Shown: positions 556 through 50,990 of the stretch, piece by piece
Layout: the number at the start of each line of letters is the position of its first letter
Position numbering within the stretch: position 1 is the stretch's first letter
Assembly (NCBI RefSeq): GCF_004027225.2
Contig: NC_044288.2
Span: 16,502,744-16,566,743 of the forward strand
Length of the DNA: 64,000 bases
DNA from: Strigops habroptila
Lineage: Eukaryota > Chordata > Aves > Psittaciformes > Psittacidae
Reading direction: 5' to 3'
Made by a program: the position numbers and the translations under genes
Notes under the pieces: generated by a model
The model's database searches: none
What the model was told of the DNA's origin: nothing
The model's input: only the letters and a program-made list of their open reading frames with translations

Positions 556-3500
556 CTGACGCCGGGTGGGAAGGCGGCGCAGGCTGGCGTGGGAGTGGGA
601 GACTGGGTGCTGTACATCGATGGGGAGAGCACCAGCTCCATGACACACATCGAGGCCCAGAACAGGATCCGCGCCTGCGGGGACAGGCTCAGCCTCACCC
701 TGAGCAGGTAGGATTTGTGGGTCCTGATGTGGCCGGAGCAAAGCCACTCTGCCCAGTGCCATCTCCCAGCATCACTGCTCCTTGCTCGGAGCCTGGCAGC
801 CCCTGGATGGGTCCAAGGGCTCTGCTTGGCTGGATGAGGCTTGGCCTGGCTGCCAGCCCTCTCTTGTGAGCTGTGGGGCAGTGCCAGGTGGCCATGGCTC
901 CCCTTGTGTTTTGGGGGGGTACCAGTGTCCCAGTGGTGGCTGGGCCAGTTCCATCACCTGCCTACCTGTCTCCTCTCTTGCAGAGCCCAGAACCTGGGGA
1001 AGCCGCAGAAGGTACGTGTCGCTCCTGGTGCTGCAGAGGTGCCTCAGCCTGGTTTCAGGGGAGGGGAATCATCTCTGAGTGTAGATGGACAAATGGACTT
1101 TGCTCCTGGGGCCTGCAGGCTTCTGGGGGGACTGGGGTGTATTTGGAGGGCTGGAAAATTCCCCGCTGGAGGAGCAGCTCTGACTGCTGTACTGCAGGGG
1201 ATTGGAGGGAGCAGGGTCTGTCCAGCAGGCGCCCAGACCATGGCTGCTGCCTGCCTGTGCCTCTGCCAGTGCTGGGTGCGGGCAGGGGTGCAAAGGCCAA
1301 TGCAGGGGAGGAGGCCAGGCAGCCGCTCATGGCCTCGGGGCCCCATGTTTGTCAGCGCTGGGCAGTGCCCTGGCACAGGAGCAGGGCTGGGGCTGGTGAC
1401 CGGTGACTCCTGGATGGAAGCCACCTGCATGCATTCAGCTTCATGCTGCGAGGCAGTTGGGATCGGCGTGTGTGCATGCACTGCCCCGCTGCGTGCAGCA
1501 GCGAGTGTCTGGGCACTTACTAATTCTCCAGCAACCCTCGGGCTGGGCTTGTGACCTGCAGAGCGAGGTGCCAGCCTGGCAGAGCCCGGTATCCTGCGGT
1601 GCACATGCTGTCCGGCTTTCCTGCCTGCTGCGCTGCCCGGCCCCTTGCATGCTGCTTGACGTGTGAGCCCGTGTCTGTGTGTTTTGTCTCGCTCAGGACT
1701 CACTCCCCTGCTCTGAACCCCTGAAATATAACTTCGCTCCCAGCACCGCCCTCAACAAAACAGCCCGGCCCTTCGGGGCCGGCTCGCCTCCGAACCCACG
1801 GCCCGGGCTGGTGACGAAACCCGTGACGTACGCCCCCCTGGCGCCTGCCTGCACCCCCCAGCACAATGGGTACGTTGCTGTCTGTCCTGCTCCCCGAGGA
1901 TCGGGGGGACCCCACTGCCCAGCCCTGCTGCGCCTTGCATGCCAGGCCCTGGGGTGGCAGTGGGTGACAGTGCCTATGCTGGGGTCCCCCAGTGGCTGGT
2001 GCTGAGGTGGCACAACAGGACTGTCATGCACGGGGACGCACAGCCATGCACATGCTGGTCCCTTGCTCAGGGACATGTCAAGCCTGTGGGGAGTCCTGCA
2101 GGACATCGCATGGTGGTTGCAGGAGGACATTCACTGGCATCTGTGGCAGCAGGGAAGCGGTGGCTGCGTTGTGGCCACCAGCCAGTGCCTGCCCCGGGAT
2201 GTCCTGCTGGGCCCATGGCTGCCAGGACAGGCTGGCACAGTGAAGCCCTCGCACCCCATGCAGCACCGTCCTCACCCTGCTTGCAGGGAAGACGCTCCTG
2301 GCTCTCCAGGCTGCCCACCCGTGTGTCCAGCAGCTGCTGCTCCCTGCCCCTCCTGCTGGGAGCTGCTGTGGTGCCCTGAACAGGGCAATGGGGGGATGCA
2401 GCCCTGGCTGCCCTGGGCACCCAGCTCTGTTTTGGGGGGCTGAGGGAGGCATGGTCTGCTCTGCTGGTGTCTGGCCCTGTGCCCCAGTGTGCTCCCAGCC
2501 CTGGCAAACTGGGCATGAGTCTCGGGGTAGAGGGACTGATGCAGGCCATAGGTGAGCTCTGGAAACTTCTCGGGTGCTGTGGGTCTAATTTCTCTTTCCT
2601 TTTTCTTTCTTTCTCTCATCCCTTTCTCTTTCCCTCTCCCCTACAGGTGCTGAGCCTTGACAAGTCAGTAAGCCTTTTGCCTGCCCTTTCTATCCTCCCT
2701 GCATGCCTCTTCCCTGCTATTGACAGCCTGAGGACAGGCAGCATGTCCTGCTCTGCCCATGGGGTGGGTCACTCCTGGCAGCATGCTGCCCCTAGCCTGA
2801 AGGGCAAGCTCTGCCTGTCTCTGTTGGGGCCCTGGAGTGTCCTCACGCATGGTCCCTTTCCTCCTCCCCAAGACATCTCTTAGTTGGGCAAGGGCTGTCA
2901 GGCTGTGCTGGGGACCATGCCCAGGGCCAAGAAGGCATCACTGCCATAGACACCATAGGTGTTCATTCAGCTCTCATGCAGCTGCCCTGCCAGTGATTTA
3001 TTTACCTTAGCTTATTCTTGCCCTGTCTTTTCCACTGCTGGCCCTTGGGACCAGTCTTACAATGCCAGGTATGGTAGTCAGTCCTTAATGGGCCCTCCTG
3101 ACATGGAGGAGGAGTAGGGGTATGGGGAGTAGGCAGTGCGTGGTGTCTCAGGTACTAATGTGCTGTGGTTCTGTCCCGGGGCAGCCCCAGGGGGGTGATG
3201 CTATGGGGATCTGTCAGATTTGACAGACCACTCTGTCACTCACAGGCAGCCCCCGGAGCCCCCCAGCACCCCTGTATATGACCCCATGAAGTTACGGCTG
3301 ATAGAGGACTCTGAGAGCTGGCAGCCCCGCTCCGGGACCTCCCAGTCCCGCTCCTTCCTCAAACTGGCCTGGCTGACGGGCACAGATGGATGTAAGTTCC
3401 CTCAGGGGCTGGCGCTGGCAGCCTGGGAGTGCTTGGCTTTGCCAGGGCCACTGCAGCCAGATAGATGACATGGTGTATTGTGGCACCGAGTGTTGGTTTT

Positions 3501-6500
3501 GGCCTCGTGTGGTACCTCTGAGCTGGTGGGAGCTGCCTGGGACTCTGTGTGCTCGTAGTGGTGCCGCTGGGCTGGGGCTGTGCTCTGCCCCGTGCCCGGG
3601 CAGGGCTGTGTGTTGGGGCAGGAGGGTGGCGGGAGGAGAGAGCAGTTTTCCTTCCTTTCCTTTTCCTTCCTGCTGTGCCTGGTCCTCGGTGGCCACAGAC
3701 TGACTCTGTCTCCTCCTTTCTCTCCTGCTGTGCTCAGTGGAGGATCATGAGGATGATCTTGTTAAAGAGCCCAGGTAAGGGGAGCGTGCACCAGGGCAGC
3801 AGCAGGAGCCACGATGGTGCCCACTCAGCCCACCCGGCTGGTTTGCACTCACTGCTTGCAGTGACTCTGGGGAAGCTCTTTGCCCTGTTGTTGTTTCTTC
3901 TCTCCTGTCCTCTGGCTCCATCCTCACATTCCATCTCTCTCCTTTCGCCCTCCCTAAGCTGAGCTCTTGATGGAGCTGCGGAGCCTGCCCTGCACTCGCC
4001 ACACGGTGGCACGATGGGCACCTCTAGCGCTCAGCCACCGATCTGACCATCACCTCGGGAGGGTCCTGCCTGGGCACCCACCTGCAGGGCTGGCTGTCCC
4101 CAAACAGGGTGTGCCAGGCAGGACCTGCTGGGCACTGCTGGCACTGAGCTGGGGAGGCTGAGCTGCACCGTTGCTTCTTGAGCAAATGGGATCTGGGGGA
4201 GGCTGGTGGCACTGGCAACAGCTTGCTGGGGGTGTTGGGAGGTGCTGGAAGTACCTGGACCTGGGGCACAATATCCTGTGGGCCTGAAAGACAGCCTTGC
4301 AGACTGGGGTGAGTGTCACCGGTGTTCCTGTGGAGCTGGGGGTGGCCAGGAGGCTTGTCAGGAAGGAATGCTGCTGGCTTCTCTATTGGGCTGGAGAAGC
4401 ATATGGGAGGGATGCACTGAGCCATGGGTCAGCCACTGAGTGTTGTGCCGCCGTTTTTCTGATGCCACAGGGATGCCTGTGGGTCTGGCTGGGGCTAAAG
4501 GGACTGTGGTGCATGCTGGTGGTGAGGGTCTGGAGAGTGTGTTAGCGTGTGTGAGGGCAATTTTGGGGTCACTGCCATGTGCCCAGGCAGGGTCCATGCA
4601 TGGTGCTGGCTGAGCGCCTGCCTCTGTCGCTCGCAGGCAGCCCCTGCAGCCAGTGGAGCCCCCCAGCATCCCTGTGTGTGACCCTGGGAAGTTACGGCTT
4701 GTAGAGGACTCTGAGAGCTGGCAGCCCCGCACTGGGACCTCCCAGTCCCGCTCCTTCCGCAAACTGGCCCAGCTGACGGGCACTGACAGCAGTGAGTTCA
4801 CGCAGGACCCGGCGCTGGCTGCTGGGCTTTGCTGGGGCAACTGGAGCCTGATATAGGCTGTTGTGCGGTGTGGCACCGGTGTGTTGGTTGTGGCCCCTCT
4901 GAGCCAGTGGGAGCTGCCCAGGGCTGTCCCGTAGTGGTTGGGCTGGGGCTGTGCTCTGCCCCGTCCCCAGGCAGGGCTGTGTGTTGGGGCAGGAGGGCGG
5001 TGGGAGGAGAGGGCGATTTTCCTGCCTTTCCTTTTCCTTCCTGCTGTGCCTGGTCCTCGGTGGCCGCAGACTGACTCTGTCTCCTCCTTTCTCTCCTGCT
5101 GTGCTCAGTGGAGGATCATGAGGATGATCTTGTTAAAGAGCCCAGGTAAGGGGAGCGTGTGTCAGGGAAGCAGCAGGAGCTATTCACTCCTGCAAGCCAC
5201 TCTCTGCTTGCAGTGACTGGGGAGGCTCTTTGTCCTGTTGTTTCTTCTCTCCTCCTGCTCCATCCTCACGTTCTCTCTGTCCTCTCACTCTCCCTAAGCT
5301 GAGCTGTTGATGGAGCTGCATAGCCCGCCCTGCACTCGCCACACGATGGCACGATGGGCCCCTCCAGCGCTCAGCCACTGATTTGGCCATCACCTCGGGA
5401 GGGTCCTGCCCAGGCACCCGCCTGCCAGTCTGGCTTCTCCAATGAAGATGTCCTTAGAGCATATTATCCCCGTGCTGGCTGTGCTGGGCAGGACCCTTGG
5501 GCACTGCTGGCACTGAGCTGGGGAGGCTGAGCTGCACCAAGATGTCCTGGCTGTAATGGGTAGGGGCAGCTGGTGGCACTGGTAACACCTTGCTGGGGGT
5601 GTTGGGAGGTGCTGGACACATGCCTGGTGCACAGTGTCCTGTGGGGGGCTGCAAGGCTGGTCATGAGTTAGTGCTGATGGCATTTTTATGGGGCTTGTGC
5701 CTCTGTGGGGCTGGGGGTGCATAGGGAGGGATGCACTGAGCCATATGTCAACCACTGACTGTTGTACCGCCGTTGTTTTTAATGCCACAGGGAAACCCAT
5801 GGGGCTGGCTGGGGCACAGGGGAGATGTGGTGGTAAGTGCCAACATCATGGTGTCTCTGAAGGCACCTTTGCGATCAGTGCCCAGTGCTGCAGTGCTGGG
5901 CAGGGGCTGTGCGTGGTGCTGGCTGAGGGCCTGCCTCTGTCACTCACAGGCAGCCCCCAGAGCCGCTGGACCCCCCCAGGAGCCCCGTGTGTGACCCTGG
6001 GAAGTTGCGGCTGATGGAGGATGCTGAGGACTGGCAGCCCCGCACTGGGACCTCCCAGTCCCGCTCCTTCCGCAAACTGGCCCGGCTCACGGGCACAGAC
6101 GGATGTAAGTTCCCTCAGGGCCCAGTGGCGATGGACTGCCTGGGGGTGCTGGACTTTGCCGGGACAGGGAGTGCCTGGCAGAGGCTGTGGGGTGATGTGG
6201 CACTGGGGCTTTGGCCCCATGTGGTACCTCTGAGCCAGTGGGAGCTGCCCAGGGATCTGTGTGTGCTCGTGGTGGTGCCGCTGGGCTGGGGCCATGCTCT
6301 GCCCCGTGCCTGGGCAGGGCTGTGTGTTGGGGCAGGAGGGCGGTGGGAGGAGAGAGCGGTTTTCCTGCCTTTCCTTCCTGCTGTGCCTGGTCCTTGGTGG
6401 CTGCAGACTGACTCTGTCTCCTCCTTTCTCTCCTGCTGCGCTCAGTGGAGGATCATGGTGATGTGTTTGTTAAAAAGCCCAGGTAAGGGGAGTGTGCACC

Positions 6501-9470
6501 AGGGCTGCATATCCCAGCCAGGACTTGCTGGGCACTGCTGGCACCAAGCTGGGGATGCCAAGCTGTGCCATGATACCCCAGACACAGCAGGTCTAATGCA
6601 GCTTGTGGCACTGTTAAAACCTCTCTGGAGTGGTTGTGATGTCTGGGCAGCGCCTTTACATGGGGCATAATGTCCTATGAGTCTGGCGTGGGGCTGTGGG
6701 GGTGGCCAGGCAGAGCTTGGGGAGTTTCACCCGCTCCTCCCTGTGTGAGGACAGAGAAGGGAGCCGGGGCTGTGTTGAGGGGTGCTGGGTGCTGTTCTTT
6801 GCCCCGTGCAGCCGGTCAGGAGTGGCGCACAGCGCCCCTGTTTTCCCTTCCCCTCTCTGTGATGCCTCCTGCCCTGGCGCTGTGGCCGCTGGGTCCCAGC
6901 TGTGTCTGGTTTGCTCTGCTGCAAACAAGTGCTCCTGGTTTTGTAGCCGTCTCCTTATCTATGCCCTGGAGAGGCACAGAGCCACTGGCTCTCTCTCTGT
7001 CCTGTCCTCTCTCTTGGGTGGGTTGTGCCTGTCTGGCCCTGGCTTGCCCTGCCTGCTCCCCAGCCCAGTGCTGGCAGCCTGCAGGGAGACAGGCCTTGTC
7101 CCTCCCAGGGCCAGCCTGGCCCTGTGTAGCCGGCAGGGATGGCAGAGCCCTGCCTGTCCCCAGCTATGCCAGAGCTGGACCCCGGTGCTCCCCACTCTAT
7201 GTCAGGTTCAGGTCCCTCTGCACCCTGATGGGGCTGGGGGTGACCGTCATGTGTGAGTGGGTAACCAGGGTCTGTGAGGTCTCTGGTTGGTCTGGAGCAG
7301 CCCAGAGCTGGTGTGAGACCCCAGCAGGTCTGTGCTCCCTCCCACCACTCCCCAGATCACTGTGATGGGTGCCAGAGGGCTGAAGGTGCTTGGCTTTGTA
7401 CCCCATCATTGCCAAACCAGCTGCCAGCTGGGCACATGGGCTTGGCCAGCTCCTGCCTGCTTGTTGGGGTGGGGGGCCGTGCTTTGCACACATAGGATGG
7501 TAGGGTTGAGTGGGGCAGGCTGGATTAACTGCTTGTTCTGTAGCCAGGTCTCTGTGCCGGACCCATCCCCAGGAGCAGGGATGAAGACTGAGCCAGGACT
7601 GGGTGAGCAAAATGTTTCCTCTGGTCTTGGGGTGAGAGGGATGGGGGAGCCGGGGGTTGCTGCTTGCCCATCTGTGGGTGCTGAGAGTGGGCTGCTGAGG
7701 GATCAGGAGCACTGTCCTGGAGACCTGTGTGTGTGCAGCCCCCAGGACCCCCGCCACCACCCCTGGCCCTGCCAGCCGCCCTCCTTGGGCTGTGGACCCC
7801 TCTTTCGCGGAGCGCTATGCCCCGGACAAGACGAGCACAGTGGTGAGCAAGCATAGCCAGCCGGCCACACCGACCCCCATGCAGAACCGCAGCTCCATCG
7901 TGCAGGCAGCACAGCAAGCCCCCGAGGGGCCCGGCCGCACGCCGCTCTGCTACAAGTGCAACAAGGTCATCAGGTGAGCCCTGGCCACACCGCCACCGCC
8001 ACCACACCAGTGTCCTGCGTCCTGGCGTGGCTGATGTGGTTCTGTCCTGTTGTAGGGGACGCTACCTGGTGGCGCTGGGACATTATTACCACCCTGAGGA
8101 GTTCACCTGCTGCCAGTGCAGGAAGGTGCTGGATGAGGGTGGCTTCTTCGAGGAGAAAGGCTCCATCTTCTGCCCCAAGTGCTACGACACGCGCTATGCA
8201 CCCAGCTGTGCCAAGTGCAAGAAGAAGATCACAGGGGTTAGTGTCCCTCAGACTGCCCCTCACCTCCCATCCTTACTCCCTGCTCACCTATGGGTGCCTG
8301 ACCCCTTCCCTTCCCATCCTGATCCCATCCCATGGATCCCTTGTCCCTTTCTGCCCTGGGTGGGATTCCTGTGGCACTGGGTGGTCCTGCCCCTGGCTGA
8401 TGGTGGTTCCTCTCCAGGAGGTCATGCATGCACTGAAGATGACCTGGCACGTGCAGTGCTTCACGTGCGCTGCCTGCAAAACTCCCATCCGCAACCGTGC
8501 CTTCTACATGGAGGAGGGACAGCCCTACTGCGAGAGAGGTAGGACCTGGGGACCCCATGTGTCATCCTGCATGGCACTGGGGCACTGGGCACTATCAGGG
8601 CTCAGCAGCTGCCCACAGGGGTGGGGGCAAGCTGCCCTGCACTGCAGGGCTCCCCTGAGCCATGAGGAAGGCTGGGACCCCGCTCCCACAGTCCTGAGCC
8701 CTCCATCCTGGTCCTCCCAGGATGCTGCCGGGGGTAGTGCCATCACTCCCACGTTGCCATGGTGATGACACAGGATGTACATCAAAGGCGAGTGCTGCAT
8801 CCTGGGAGATGAGGTTTGCCTCCTCCCTGCGCCCGGGGCCACCCTGCACGGCACAGGCATCTCTCCCGGGTGTCTCCATCATCATCCCTCTGGGGCTGGC
8901 AGCAAGTTGTCCTCAGGCTGTGCGTGTGGGATCCCGGCTGTGCGGCAGCCCTGCTCCACTGGCTGAGGAGCTGCAGTGCAGGGGAGCACTGACCTGGGCT
9001 CTGCCTCTCCTCACAGACTATGAGAAGATGTTTGGCACCAAGTGCCGCGGCTGCGACTTCAAGATTGATGCTGGGGACCGGTTCCTGGAGGCGCTGGGGT
9101 TCAGCTGGCATGACACTTGCTTCGTCTGTGCGGTGAGCCATGTGCCTCCCTCCTTGGCTGCTAGTGGGGCTGTGGCTCTCCCTGGCAGTTGTGCCATGCA
9201 TGGGATACACCAGCAGCATGGGGTCCCTGCTGCAACAAGGTTTTCCCCACTTGGCGCTGTGCTGGTGGCTCAGAACCCTGCTCCCTGGCATCTGCGCCAC
9301 ACCAGTGCTGAGCCCTGGGCCACGGAGGGAAGCCAGGGGCAATTCAGCCCCCCTGACCTGATCTGTGCTCTCTTCTCCTCCAGATCTGCCAGACCAACCT
9401 GGAAGGGAAGACGTTCTACTCCAAGAAGGACAAGCCGCTCTGCAAGAGCCACGCTTTCTCCCACGTGTGA
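556..9470 (+). CDS. PDLIM7: PDLIM7 (Enigma / LMP-1), PDZ and LIM domain protein 7; 5' end outside window
   Basis: Scaffold protein linking actin/alpha-actinin structures to kinases through one N-terminal PDZ and three C-terminal LIM domains. Coding exons seen: 556-707 (second half of the PDZ, starting [11 protein letters not shown]), 984-1011, 1697-1869, three copies of a two-exon cassette (3246-3391+3738-3774; 4637-4791+5109-5145; 5950-6104+6446-6482), 7544-7602, 7739-7973 ([20 protein letters not shown], start of LIM1), 8056-8236, 8418-8538, 9017-9132 and 9384-9470, ending KSHAFSHV and TGA. Every junction has GT-AG sites and matching phase. The LIM part carries the expected Cys/His pairs (CYKC, CCQC, CAKC, CAAC, CRGC, CAIC). 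The first exon (MDSFKVVLEG in known orthologues) must lie upstream of base 1. The remembered chicken protein goes directly from the 1697-1869 exon to the 7544 exon, so the cassettes are probably alternatively spliced. Identity is certain; isoform structure is inferred. Confidence 0.95.
3240..4620 (+). repeat. PDLIM7 cassette copy 1 (two exons plus introns)
   Basis: First copy of a tandemly repeated block. Exon A1 (3246-3391) encodes 48 residues containing the core [14 protein letters not shown] and LTGTDG. Exon B1 (3738-3774) encodes [12 protein letters not shown] plus two bases of an Arg codon. Together they are 183 nt, so the cassette enters and leaves in phase 2. The introns also match copies 2 and 3, for example the stretch around 3580-3640. 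The human protein has one such module (RSFRILAHLTGTEF followed by MQDPDEEHLKKS). Three codons are missing near the start of A1 relative to A2 and A3. Confidence 0.9.
4621..5930 (+). repeat. PDLIM7 cassette copy 2
   Basis: Exon A2 (4637-4791, 155 nt) encodes 51 residues including [20 protein letters not shown]. Exon B2 (5109-5145, 37 nt) encodes [12 protein letters not shown]. Total 192 nt, phase 2 in and out. Downstream intronic sequence (about 5200-5660) closely parallels copy 1 (about 3840-4290), so copies 1 and 2 share more than the exons and look like the most recent duplication. The unit length from A1 to A2 is 1391 bases, and from A2 to A3 1313 bases. Confidence 0.9.
5931..6660 (+). repeat. 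PDLIM7 cassette copy 3
   Basis: Exon A3 (5950-6104, 155 nt) encodes [20 protein letters not shown] and LARLTGTDG. Exon B3 (6446-6482, 37 nt) encodes [13 protein letters not shown]3 is the closest of the three to the human motif (LMENTEDWRPRPGTGQSRSF), so it may be the ancestral copy, while B3 has drifted most from the acidic consensus. Similarity to the other copies fades at about 6660. Confidence 0.88.
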
Positions 9471-24224: not shown

Positions 24225-25037
24225 TTAGACAGCGGTAGTCCTGCCGAAGAGGGGCATGGAGACCGGGAGGTGCCAGGGTCCCGGCTCGTAGGTGTCCCTG
24301 CTGCTGAGCTCAGAGTCCGTCCAGCTGGGAAACATGCGAGGGGAGCACTCTGACTGCAGGTAGAGGTCCGGGCAGGCAGGGCCGGGGCTGGCCGAGCGGG
24401 GCAGGTGCAGTGCGGAGCCGTAGCCGGCGTCCAGGAAAAGGGGTTTGTAGCTGGGGGGCTGCTCCTGCTTCTCCAGCCGCTCGTGGCTCAGGAATGGGGC
24501 GTTGATTTTGCGGTAGAGCCCCCGCGTGTCCATCAGCACCTCACTGTATGGCGGGGGGGGCTCCGCCATCAGCAGCGCTTCCTCGTAACACGGCGGCTTT
24601 GACAGGTCTGACTCTGCAAGGCAAAGCCCCCCCCGGACCCCTGCTGCCATCAGTGCTGCGCCCCGGTTCTCCTGCCGTATCCCCCCCCGACACCAGGGAG
24701 AGGCGCACATTGTGCCGACATCCCCTCCATGCTCCTTACCGTGCCGGCAGCTCCAGGGCCGGGGGGGAGGGATGTGGTGGGGGTGGTGATGGTGGGGCTC
24801 GAGGCGCAGGCGGTGGGGAATGGCGATGCCGGGGGGGCTGCCCCCATAACCCTCGTAGTGCAGCGGCTCCAGCTCCAGCGCGCGCAAGCTCTGCTCCCGC
24901 AGCCGCTCCTCCTGCTGCCGCTTCACCCGCCGCCGTAGGTAGCTGCAGAAGCAGCACAGCAGCACGATGAGGCCCCAGATGAGCCAGAAGCCCGCGAAGC
25001 AGGTGAGGAAGGTGTAGGTGCCCTGGGACATCACCAT
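24225..25037 (-). CDS. PRR7: PRR7, proline-rich synaptic membrane protein
   Basis: Two coding exons, 25037-24740 and 24613-24225, joined in phase at HE/SDLSK; 228 aa against about 274 in human. PRR7 is a small transmembrane adaptor of the postsynaptic density and lymphocytes. The N-terminus [20 protein letters not shown] opens a single membrane segment (about residues 9-31), followed by CCFC cysteines and a basic, Arg-rich juxtamembrane stretch. A short His/Pro-rich region around [13 protein letters not shown] is clearly smaller than the long His tract of human PRR7, accounting for the length difference. Further on are [10 protein letters not shown] (PPxY motif), [24 protein letters not shown] and the C-terminal PLFGRTTAV, a class I PDZ ligand. 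The ATG is in a good context (AAGATGG). The 126-base intron is a multiple of three and stop-free, so the frame also reads through it. Confidence 0.95.
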
Positions 25038-25039
25038 CT

Positions 25040-25379
25040 TGGCTGCCGGCCCCGGGGGGAGGCCACGGCCTCTCCCTGCCCTCGGGGTGGGGGACGGGAT
25101 GCTCAGGGCGGCGGCAGGGCCAGGGCAGGACCCGATGCTGTCAGGGCTACCGAGGGCATCTCCCCGGGCTGTGCCCGGCGGCGTCTCCTCCGGCCCGCGG
25201 GCGCCCGCCGTCAGGGGTCCATCCTCGCCATGGAGCCGGGGGGGGCTGGAGCGGGTGGGTCAGGCCTGGGTGCGCTGGGCAGGCGGCGGGGCAGGGGGCC
25301 GGCGGGGTGGGCGGCGGGGGGACGGGGCCGGCGGGGTCCCGCTGCCCATCGCTGGGAGGGGGCCTCTGGGGAGAGGGCC
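25040..25379 (-). promoter_or_regulatory. Probable PRR7 5' UTR on the first coding exon
   Basis: Upstream of the PRR7 ATG, the - strand has a good acceptor, CTGTCTCGTTGCAG, placing an exon start at 25379. No other known coding motif was found. It pairs well with the donor at 28457; the join is inferred. Confidence 0.45.
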
Positions 25380-49094: not shown

Positions 49095-50123
49095 CTAGGT
49101 GCAGTGCTGGCGGGGGATGGTGAGGAGCCGTCGGAAGGCGTTGCGGAAGTCCCGATTGAAGAGGGTGTAGATGAGGGGGTTGAGGCTGCTATTGCAGTAC
49201 CCGATCCAGAAGAAGAAGCTGAAGAGGGGCTTGGAGATGTGGCAGCCGTCCCCACACACAGCCCCCAGGCTGTAGGTGAAGAAGAAGGGAAACCAGCACA
49301 GCACAAAGGCGCCCATCACCACAGCCAGCACCATGGTGAAGCGCCGCTCCTGTGCCCGCATCAGCCGCCAGCGGCACAGCAGCATGCTCTGGTGCTGGCT
49401 CTGGCGCCGCCAGCCCGGCATCCTGATCCCTGGCCCCTTCCTGCTGGCAGCGGCAAGGTGCAGGGAGCGGGCGGCGAGGAGGGCTGCAGCCCTGCGGGTG
49501 GTCAGGCGGTAGATGCGGCAGTACACGGCGATCATGACGAGGCAGGGGCCGAAGAAGGATGCTGTGCAGGAGGCCAGCACGTACCATGTCTCCTGGCTCA
49601 GCTGGCACTCGGGGCCGCCCGGCCGGGCCCACAGCAGTGGTGGCAGTGCCACCAGCGCCGCCGCAGCCCAAACCGCCCCGATCATGCCCTTCACGCGCCC
49701 AGGGCTGCGCCGCAGGTTGAGCTGGGCCGCCCGGGTGACGGCCCAGTAGCGGTCAAGGCTGATGGCGCAGAGGTGCCCGATGGAGGAGGTGCAGAGCAGC
49801 ACGTCCAGCGCCAGGTACAGGCTGCACCACAGGCCGCCGAAATGCCAGTAGCCCATCACCTCATTGGCCAGCGAGAAGGGCAGGACGAGGACAGCCACCA
49901 GGATGTCTGCCGAGGCCAGGGACACCAGGAAGAGGTTCTGCGGGGCTCGCAGGGCACGGCTGGTGGAGATGGCCACCACCACCAGTGTGTTGCCCACCAC
50001 TGTGGCCAGCAGGATGGCCAGGGCAGCCAGCAGGATGAGCCCCGTGGCCACAGGCGAGTGTGGGGCACTGCTGGCACCGCTGCTGTTACAGGAGGCATTG
50101 GGGAGGGCACCGGCTGGCTCCAT
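49095..50123 (-). CDS. ADRA2D: Alpha-2 adrenergic receptor, probably the alpha-2D subtype (ADRA2D)
   Basis: Single-exon GPCR of 342 aa for adrenaline/noradrenaline, Gi-coupled by family. Seen: N-terminal glycosylation sites (NAS, NSS); TM2 [20 protein letters not shown] and ECL1 [12 protein letters not shown]3 [20 protein letters not shown] with the amine-binding Asp107; DRYW at 124-127; ECL2 Cys173 pairing with Cys100; TM5 Ser185 and Ser189 for catechol; TM6 [13 protein letters not shown]7 [18 protein letters not shown]; helix 8 [13 protein letters not shown]. The TM2-TM3 and TM6-TM7 signatures are those of alpha-2, not dopamine or serotonin, receptors. The third intracellular loop is only about 50 residues, against 150 or more in mammalian alpha-2A, B and C. 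Position beside GRK6 fits the fourth vertebrate alpha-2 gene, kept in fish and absent in mammals. The alpha-2 class is sure; the D subtype rests on synteny. Confidence 0.85.
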
Positions 50124-50990
50124 GCTGGCCCAGCCCCTCAGGTGGATGAAGCCCTATGGAGCTGCCCCCCGCTGCACATGCCCTGCTCACCAGCCCTGAT
50201 GCATCTTGTGCCACAGCTCCGGCACCGCTGAGTCCTTCTGAGGCCGTCCCGGCCACCACCGCTCCAGTGCTGACCAGGTCTGGTGGCAAGGAGAGGTTGT
50301 CCTGGTCTGGTGGTCACCCGGTCATGCACATGGGGTGATGGTGCTGGGAACCCCGGAGCAGCTCCCACCACAGCCCTGCTGGCTGGGCTGGTCCCAGCCC
50401 AGGAGGAGGGCGGGCGGGAAGGAGGGAGGGAGGGAGGGATGGGCTGCTATCACTGGCAGGAGCCCAAGCGTCTGTGGGCAGTGAGAGAAGCCGTTATTAA
50501 CAACACTTGAAGGGCTCCTGCTGGGGTCACCATGGCGTCAGGGTGCATGGCGGGCTAAGGGCACTGCCCGGCCGTCCAGAGTCAGCATTCTGCTGATCCC
50601 AGCCTGGCGGCACCTCACCAACTGTGCCATGCTGTGCACCGCTCACTGACACACTGCCGTGGCCCATAGTAGTGTGACATGAACCCAGCCATCTCAGCCC
50701 TCTGGGGACGAGGCGGGTGGAAGAAGATGCTGCCCATGACACCTCATATAAGCTATTTGCAAACTGCAGATGAAGGGTTTGGCTGTGGCATTGTCAGTGT
50801 GTGCCCCCATGGCACCAGCAGTTCGTTTGGTGCACCTCCAGCACTGGGCACCCATACAGAGCTGGGCTGTGCAGTGGTGGTGTATGGACAGGAGGGTGCA
50901 TGGTGGGTGTCTGGTACCAGTGGCCCTGACTGTGGCTCTGGCAGGGTTTACAGAGGCAAGAGCCAGAGACACACACCCAGGGCACAGGCG
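50124..50990. other. Upstream region of the receptor gene / spacer to SLC34A1
   Basis: About 0.87 kb with no recognised exon. It should hold the receptor promoter. A short GGGA repeat is present at about 50418-50438. Confidence 0.5.

Follow-up and report, generated by a model that had tools for sequence, protein, structure and literature searches.

The mutually exclusive exons of LDB3 (ZASP/Cypher), a paralogue of PDLIM7, sit between the regions encoding the PDZ and LIM domains. Human PDLIM7 (Enigma/LMP) presumably carries, between its PDZ and LIM parts, a single cassette of two exons (termed A and B here), and the chicken PDLIM7 protein is not known to contain this A+B pair. Mouse oocytes that lose SRSF3 switch Pdlim7 from a 40-residue exon 5 to a 6-residue exon 6; the two are mutually exclusive, in-frame and placed just after the PDZ part, and DUF4749 is reported to be encoded by the form with exon 6 (PMC6006335). 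The locus described here resembles mammalian PDLIM7 in having candidate exons for such a switch, but differs in carrying three tandem A+B cassettes. Mouse Ldb3 likewise has exclusive exons 4 and 6, the latter within an exon 5-6-7 cassette, and its exclusive exons include a multi-exon cassette; the available part of PMC9822979 describes no tandem copies of one cassette. Nebulin is also a muscle gene with an exon block (eight exons) present three times in tandem, but that block is a segmental duplication with highly identical copies and variable copy number (PMC9109913), whereas the PDLIM7 array consists of divergent copies of a two-exon unit. Clusters of mutually exclusive exons that arose by tandem duplication share with the array a row of similar exons with conserved phase (PMC5740500), but the array shows no sign of exclusivity and its unit is a linked pair. 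Correlated adjacent cassette exons are neighbours that preserve the frame jointly (PMC2432081), whereas in PDLIM7 the pair itself is triplicated. In-frame repeated exon blocks (nebulin) and splicing in this stretch of Pdlim7 are therefore already known. A tandem A+B array in PDLIM7 was not described among the matches listed in literature searches on exon duplication and chicken isoforms, a search with three peptide strings returned no match, and none was found on LMP-3 insertion and splicing; the available parts of PMC3835322, PMC2967529, PMC8153164 and PMC6613909 hold general statements only, on PDLIM7 splicing or RBPMS targets. The array presents a clean case in which the unit multiplied and kept is two linked exons instead of one.

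The window analysed here is a stretch of 64,000 nucleotides (64 kb) from Strigops habroptila that starts within PDLIM7, with the gene on the plus strand. The gene model was rebuilt from exon E2 to the stop codon and comprises E2, E3, E4, the array, exon C, exon D and four LIM exons. Exon E2 (556-707) encodes part of the PDZ domain and is delimited by AG/GT borders, an open frame and matches to Pfam PDZ and to the PDLIM7 PDZ domain in the PDB. Frame reconstruction places E3 (984-1011, 28 nt, leaving phase 0) and E4 (1697-1869, 173 nt, phase 0 in and phase 2 out, with the peptide PLKYNFAP) upstream of the array. Downstream, exon C (7544-7602, 59 nt), which accepts phase 2 and passes phase 1 to D, is needed by frame between the last array exon and exon D (7739-7973, linker plus start of LIM1, open joined frame), and is followed after D by LIM exons L1 to L4 (8056-9470, up to the stop codon; frame and three LIM stretches). 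The joined protein matched Pfam PDZ and LIM above cut-off, with LIM in three stretches. Among the best 60 of 148 PDB matches, the leading chains for the PDZ part were PDLIM7 (2q3g and 7rm8), and those for the LIM part were paxillin and PDLIM5. The order of one PDZ followed by three LIM domains, with PDLIM7 as nearest relative of the PDZ part, bears out the gene identity given in the original prediction, although part of the PDZ domain falls outside the model. Visual inspection of the three forward frames over positions 1-555 revealed no PDZ start, so the first coding exon of PDLIM7 probably lies 5' of the window.

A choice between two exons that the frame makes mutually exclusive sits 5' of the array. 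The alternative to E4 is a 17-nt exon candidate, M17 (2647-2663, plus strand; VLSLDK), with phase 0 in and phase 2 out, an acceptor tract of 25/27 pyrimidines and a donor of 6.2 bits by general consensus frequencies. M17 and E4 make an equal frame step (17 and 173 both leave 2 on division by 3), and if the two are joined the protein ends one residue later. The mouse exon 5 antisense oligonucleotide printed in PMC6006335, when reversed, encodes PPRYTFAP; given its likeness to PLKYNFAP, E4 is taken as the counterpart of mouse Pdlim7 exon 5, and very probably is. The M17 candidate matches mouse Pdlim7 exon 6 in both place and size. As a side observation, joining of E4 to M17 could give a PDZ-only form, which would presumably resemble human LMP-3.

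The array itself consists of three head-to-tail units spanning positions 3246-6482 on the plus strand, each with one exon A and one exon B: A1 (3246-3391, 146 nt) and B1 (3738-3774, 37 nt), A2 (4637-4791, 155 nt) and B2 (5109-5145, 37 nt, identical to B1), and A3 (5950-6104, 155 nt) and B3 (6446-6482, 37 nt). All six exons are bordered by AG and GT and have open frames, and the A+B pairs are 183, 192 and 192 nt long. Self-comparison aligned 3231-5167 with 4622-6504 (76% over 2019 columns, E 0.0) and 3231-3801 with 5935-6509 (83% over 587 columns, E 2.5e-173). Both exons and the intron between them are alignable across all three units; for the intron 3' of B this holds for units 1 and 2 but only partly for unit 3, which lacks 308 bases present in the unit 1 downstream intron. 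Introns within the array are 317-862 nt long. The units thus share orientation, exon order, phase and flanking intron, as expected of a tandemly duplicated cassette. A fourth copy did not turn up in the window: a blastn search with unit 1 over all 64 kb matched units 1-3 alone, and tblastn of the cassette peptides against the 64-kb window gave no further match better than E 0.007. The window has no N. The original prediction had proposed a tandem triplication of a phase-symmetric exon pair with copies that differ in sequence, and on both counts (including the peptide differences that it quoted) it was right; its six array exons stand, but its exon list lacked exon C and the M17 candidate.

Each A+B pair enters and leaves in phase 2: one incoming base of exon A completes a codon and the exon leaves phase 1, while B takes two incoming bases and leaves phase 2. 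Forms with no pair, one, two (units 1 and 2) or three pairs read open to the LIM end, in agreement with the earlier claim that zero to three copies are frame-neutral, whereas the frame is shifted if A1 or B1 is included without its partner. Joining B3 directly to D, without exon C, also loses the frame. When all 256 subsets of the eight optional exons were considered, 30 kept an open frame to the end of the LIM part; 26 contain exactly one of E4 and M17, with A and B exons alternating, and the other 4 contain neither and start with two B exons. The 26 frame-keeping forms with E4 or M17 are all open and encode 22 distinct proteins. On balance, we think it probable that the array is a triplicated optional cassette, linked by frame, that tunes the motifs of the PDZ-LIM linker; in mammals the cassette is presumably single. 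Since neither A nor B keeps the frame by itself, the two exons of a copy would be included or skipped together, and the transcript would run from E4 or M17 through zero to three cassettes to exon C. The anatomy, the frames, the divergence and a residue change below neutral at the intron rate are observed; splicing of the copies, regulation of their number and the nature of their binding partners are inferred.

Each cassette encodes a proline-rich start, a 33-residue stretch and an acidic tail, with 6, 7 and 10 lysines plus arginines and 12, 12 and 11 aspartates plus glutamates in copies 1, 2 and 3, respectively. The protein would accordingly carry zero to three probably disordered, helix-prone motifs (RSFxKLAxLTGTD), each with an acidic tail, and their copies would most likely set the spacing and number of binding motifs for actin-linked partners or for LIM domains; cassette copy number would in this way alter how many motifs separate PDZ from LIM and how they are spaced. 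A structure model of exon A had a mean pLDDT of 68.3 and a pTM of 0.26, with one low-confidence helix at residues 38-47, and was too weak to serve as query in a fold search. Relationship to DUF4749 (PF15936; Pfam gathering score, 28.7 bits) stays below that cut-off, with 20.5 bits for the three-cassette protein and 14.1 bits for copy 2 behind M17, a weak match confined to profile positions 69-90 of 93, in the last quarter; copies 1 and 3 alone gave no match to this Pfam profile. A presumed human cassette segment also scored below the cut-off (18.2 bits) and was identical to copies 1, 2 and 3 at 28/60, 31/63 and 33/63 columns. PF15936 has been used for the ZM domain in fly work, where ZM-LIM binding drives oligomers and the balance of ZM and LIM modules in Zasp proteins sets myofibril diameter (PMC6910826), and the dendrite-branching activity of Pdlim5 is carried by its DUF part (PMC11312917). 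Docking proteins of the actin cytoskeleton include PDLIM7 and related proteins (PMC9751615); section 7 of the same article describes the ZM motif as probably disordered and its alpha-actinin binding as disputed, and does not name PDLIM7 among the carriers.

Divergence among the copies bears on a first rival, that one cassette is used and the other two are duplication leftovers that still look intact, which we consider unlikely. Between copies, exon A differs at 19-23 sites (K 0.145-0.166) and the 5' half of the A-B intron has K of 0.28, 0.318 and 0.304; the sole alignment gap in exon A is 9 nt, compared with 1 to 14 nt for the gaps in the A-B introns. Exon B is little informative: B1 matches B2 at all 37 nt, and B3 differs from either at 6/37, with dN exceeding dS on 12 codons. 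Silent change in the cassettes is 0.17-0.26 and replacement change 0.10-0.15 (NG86). The dN/dS comparison that had been proposed for the copies gave 0.60, 0.62 and 0.56 by NG86 and 0.42, 0.85 and 0.64 by YN00, values that indicate mild constraint and, at about 0.6, are compatible with leftovers. Likewise, all three copies would escape stop codons by chance with a probability of 0.05-0.08 at the intron rate, rising to 0.13-0.27 when slower rates are assumed. Against leftovers, variable residue sites number 20, below the neutral mean of 38-41 at the intron rate (none of 3000 simulations was as low at each of three rates); the corresponding P values are 0.03, 0.10 and 0.27 at neutral branch rates of 0.09, 0.08 and 0.07. 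Residue change is therefore below neutral at the intron rate and less clearly so at slower rates, and the cassette residues are likely to be under constraint, albeit mild.

The intron before each B exon also argues against leftovers, unless gene conversion is responsible, as a 170-nt block (3568-3737, 4939-5108 and 6276-6445 in the A1-B1, A2-B2 and A3-B3 introns, respectively) is alike in all three copies, with K of 0.055-0.072 versus 0.28-0.32 in the 5' half of the intron. Of the shared columns in this slow block 15/164 vary, compared to 54/147 in the first half of the intron (Fisher P = 4e-9) and 29/146 in exon A (P = 0.009), whereas the difference is not significant against exon B (6/37, P = 0.23) or the 32 nt after B (6/27, P = 0.09); the block border was chosen after viewing the repeat list, and these P values are therefore optimistic. 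Purines dominate one run of the block, which also has a CTGAC site and a long pyrimidine tract; no convincing pairing partner was found for it. It could serve as a splicing element common to the copies or have been kept alike by gene conversion, and constraint and conversion would look the same here. The longest runs of shared variable sites were at 3731-3785 for units 1 and 2 (P = 0.026) and at 3388-3407 for units 1 and 3 (P = 0.009), with P = 0.14 for units 2 and 3 (all uncorrected, three tests), and gene conversion is a possible source of the identity of B1 and B2. Two other explanations of the block were rejected: as structured RNA it has fold z scores of -0.43, 0.37 and -0.99, and as a hidden exon it fails on an AG 39 nt before B that leads to an immediate stop after A1 or A2, and on a stop common to its frames at CTGACT. 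At gathering score the window had no Rfam match, and no tRNA was found in it.

Splice signals speak on both sides of the leftover reading. Donors were scored with general consensus frequencies and ranked as percentiles among all GTs of the window; by this measure the six cassette donors (95.4-99.8) rank as high as or higher than the remaining donors scored in the gene model (94.3-99.5), which argues against decay. The donor of A2 is nevertheless the weakest of the six (5.9 bits), and A2 has no branch-point-like match within 120 nt. No branch-point match (CTNAY) was found at ordinary distance before A2 or A3, nor before C or D; A1 has a branch-point-like TTGAC at -26. Acceptor tracts are also relevant to a second rival, in which all three cassettes are constitutive and yield one longer protein with no tuning. 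The A tracts (15-17/27 pyrimidines) are no weaker than those of C and D (14/27), and the B tracts are strong (23/27, with CTGAC at -38), as constitutive use would have it. However, the chicken protein is not known to contain the A+B pair. Long reads from chicken myoblasts point the same way, in that the event types listed for TPM1 and PDLIM7 together include exon exclusion (available part of PMC10849790). Constitutive use of the whole array is, in our assessment, decidedly unlikely.

A third rival, raised in the original prediction, is that the three cassettes are mutually exclusive, with one per transcript. The cassettes have similar lengths (183, 192 and 192 nt) and keep phase 2, as in known exclusive clusters, the copies differ in charged residues, and in human such exons can occur in clusters of three to ten (PMC5740500). 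The 25 of 51 pairs listed include an upstream site (1910-1928) that could pair over 19 nt, at 79% complementarity, with the equivalent position of every copy. However, nothing in frame, crowding or pairing was found to bar joint inclusion: the frame is kept when copies are included together, the array introns of 317-862 nt leave room between exons, docking/selector pairing with the upstream site is not clearly above shuffles (3, 2 and 4 of 30 equal or better), and the slow block is without an unusual fold. Mutually exclusive use of the three copies is therefore not supported by this analysis, and we rate it as very unlikely.

Within one downstream stretch, units 1 and 2 are closer to each other (K 0.255) than to unit 3 (K 0.478 and 0.471), and the 5' half of the A-B intron is without such an order of closeness; two successive duplications are a plausible origin of the array. 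The neutral rate in birds is about 2 per billion sites and year, at which a K of 0.30 would make the copies, as a rough estimate, ~75 million years old; at that age the array is predicted to be common to related families, and an assembly artefact is disfavoured. Although tandem arrays are prone to expansion of one real copy during assembly, such an origin is barely credible here given the 19-23 differing sites in A, the K of 0.28-0.32 in the intron half (which makes recent expansion unlikely), the many gaps, the 308 bases missing from unit 3 and a window free of N.

A bolder version of the optional, frame-linked cassette reading, which we offer tentatively and think unlikely to hold, is that the three-cassette array behind an exclusive exon pair would act as a counting device, in which tissues would choose the number of motifs and hence the strength of cross-linking at Z-discs or stress fibres, with the 170-nt block as a shared splicing switch. 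Zero to three frame-neutral cassettes in a natural gene would allow a test of motif number in a vertebrate. Elsewhere in the window, a minus-strand open reading frame with a WBP-1 match (24225-25259) reads like PRR7, a neighbour of PDLIM7 in human. A single-frame receptor open reading frame lies at 49095-50153, also on the minus strand, with the alpha-2A (373 bits) and alpha-2C (366 bits) adrenergic receptors as nearest solved structures; its third inner loop appears by eye to be only ~50 residues long, and it is possibly of the alpha-2D type, which is missing from mammals.
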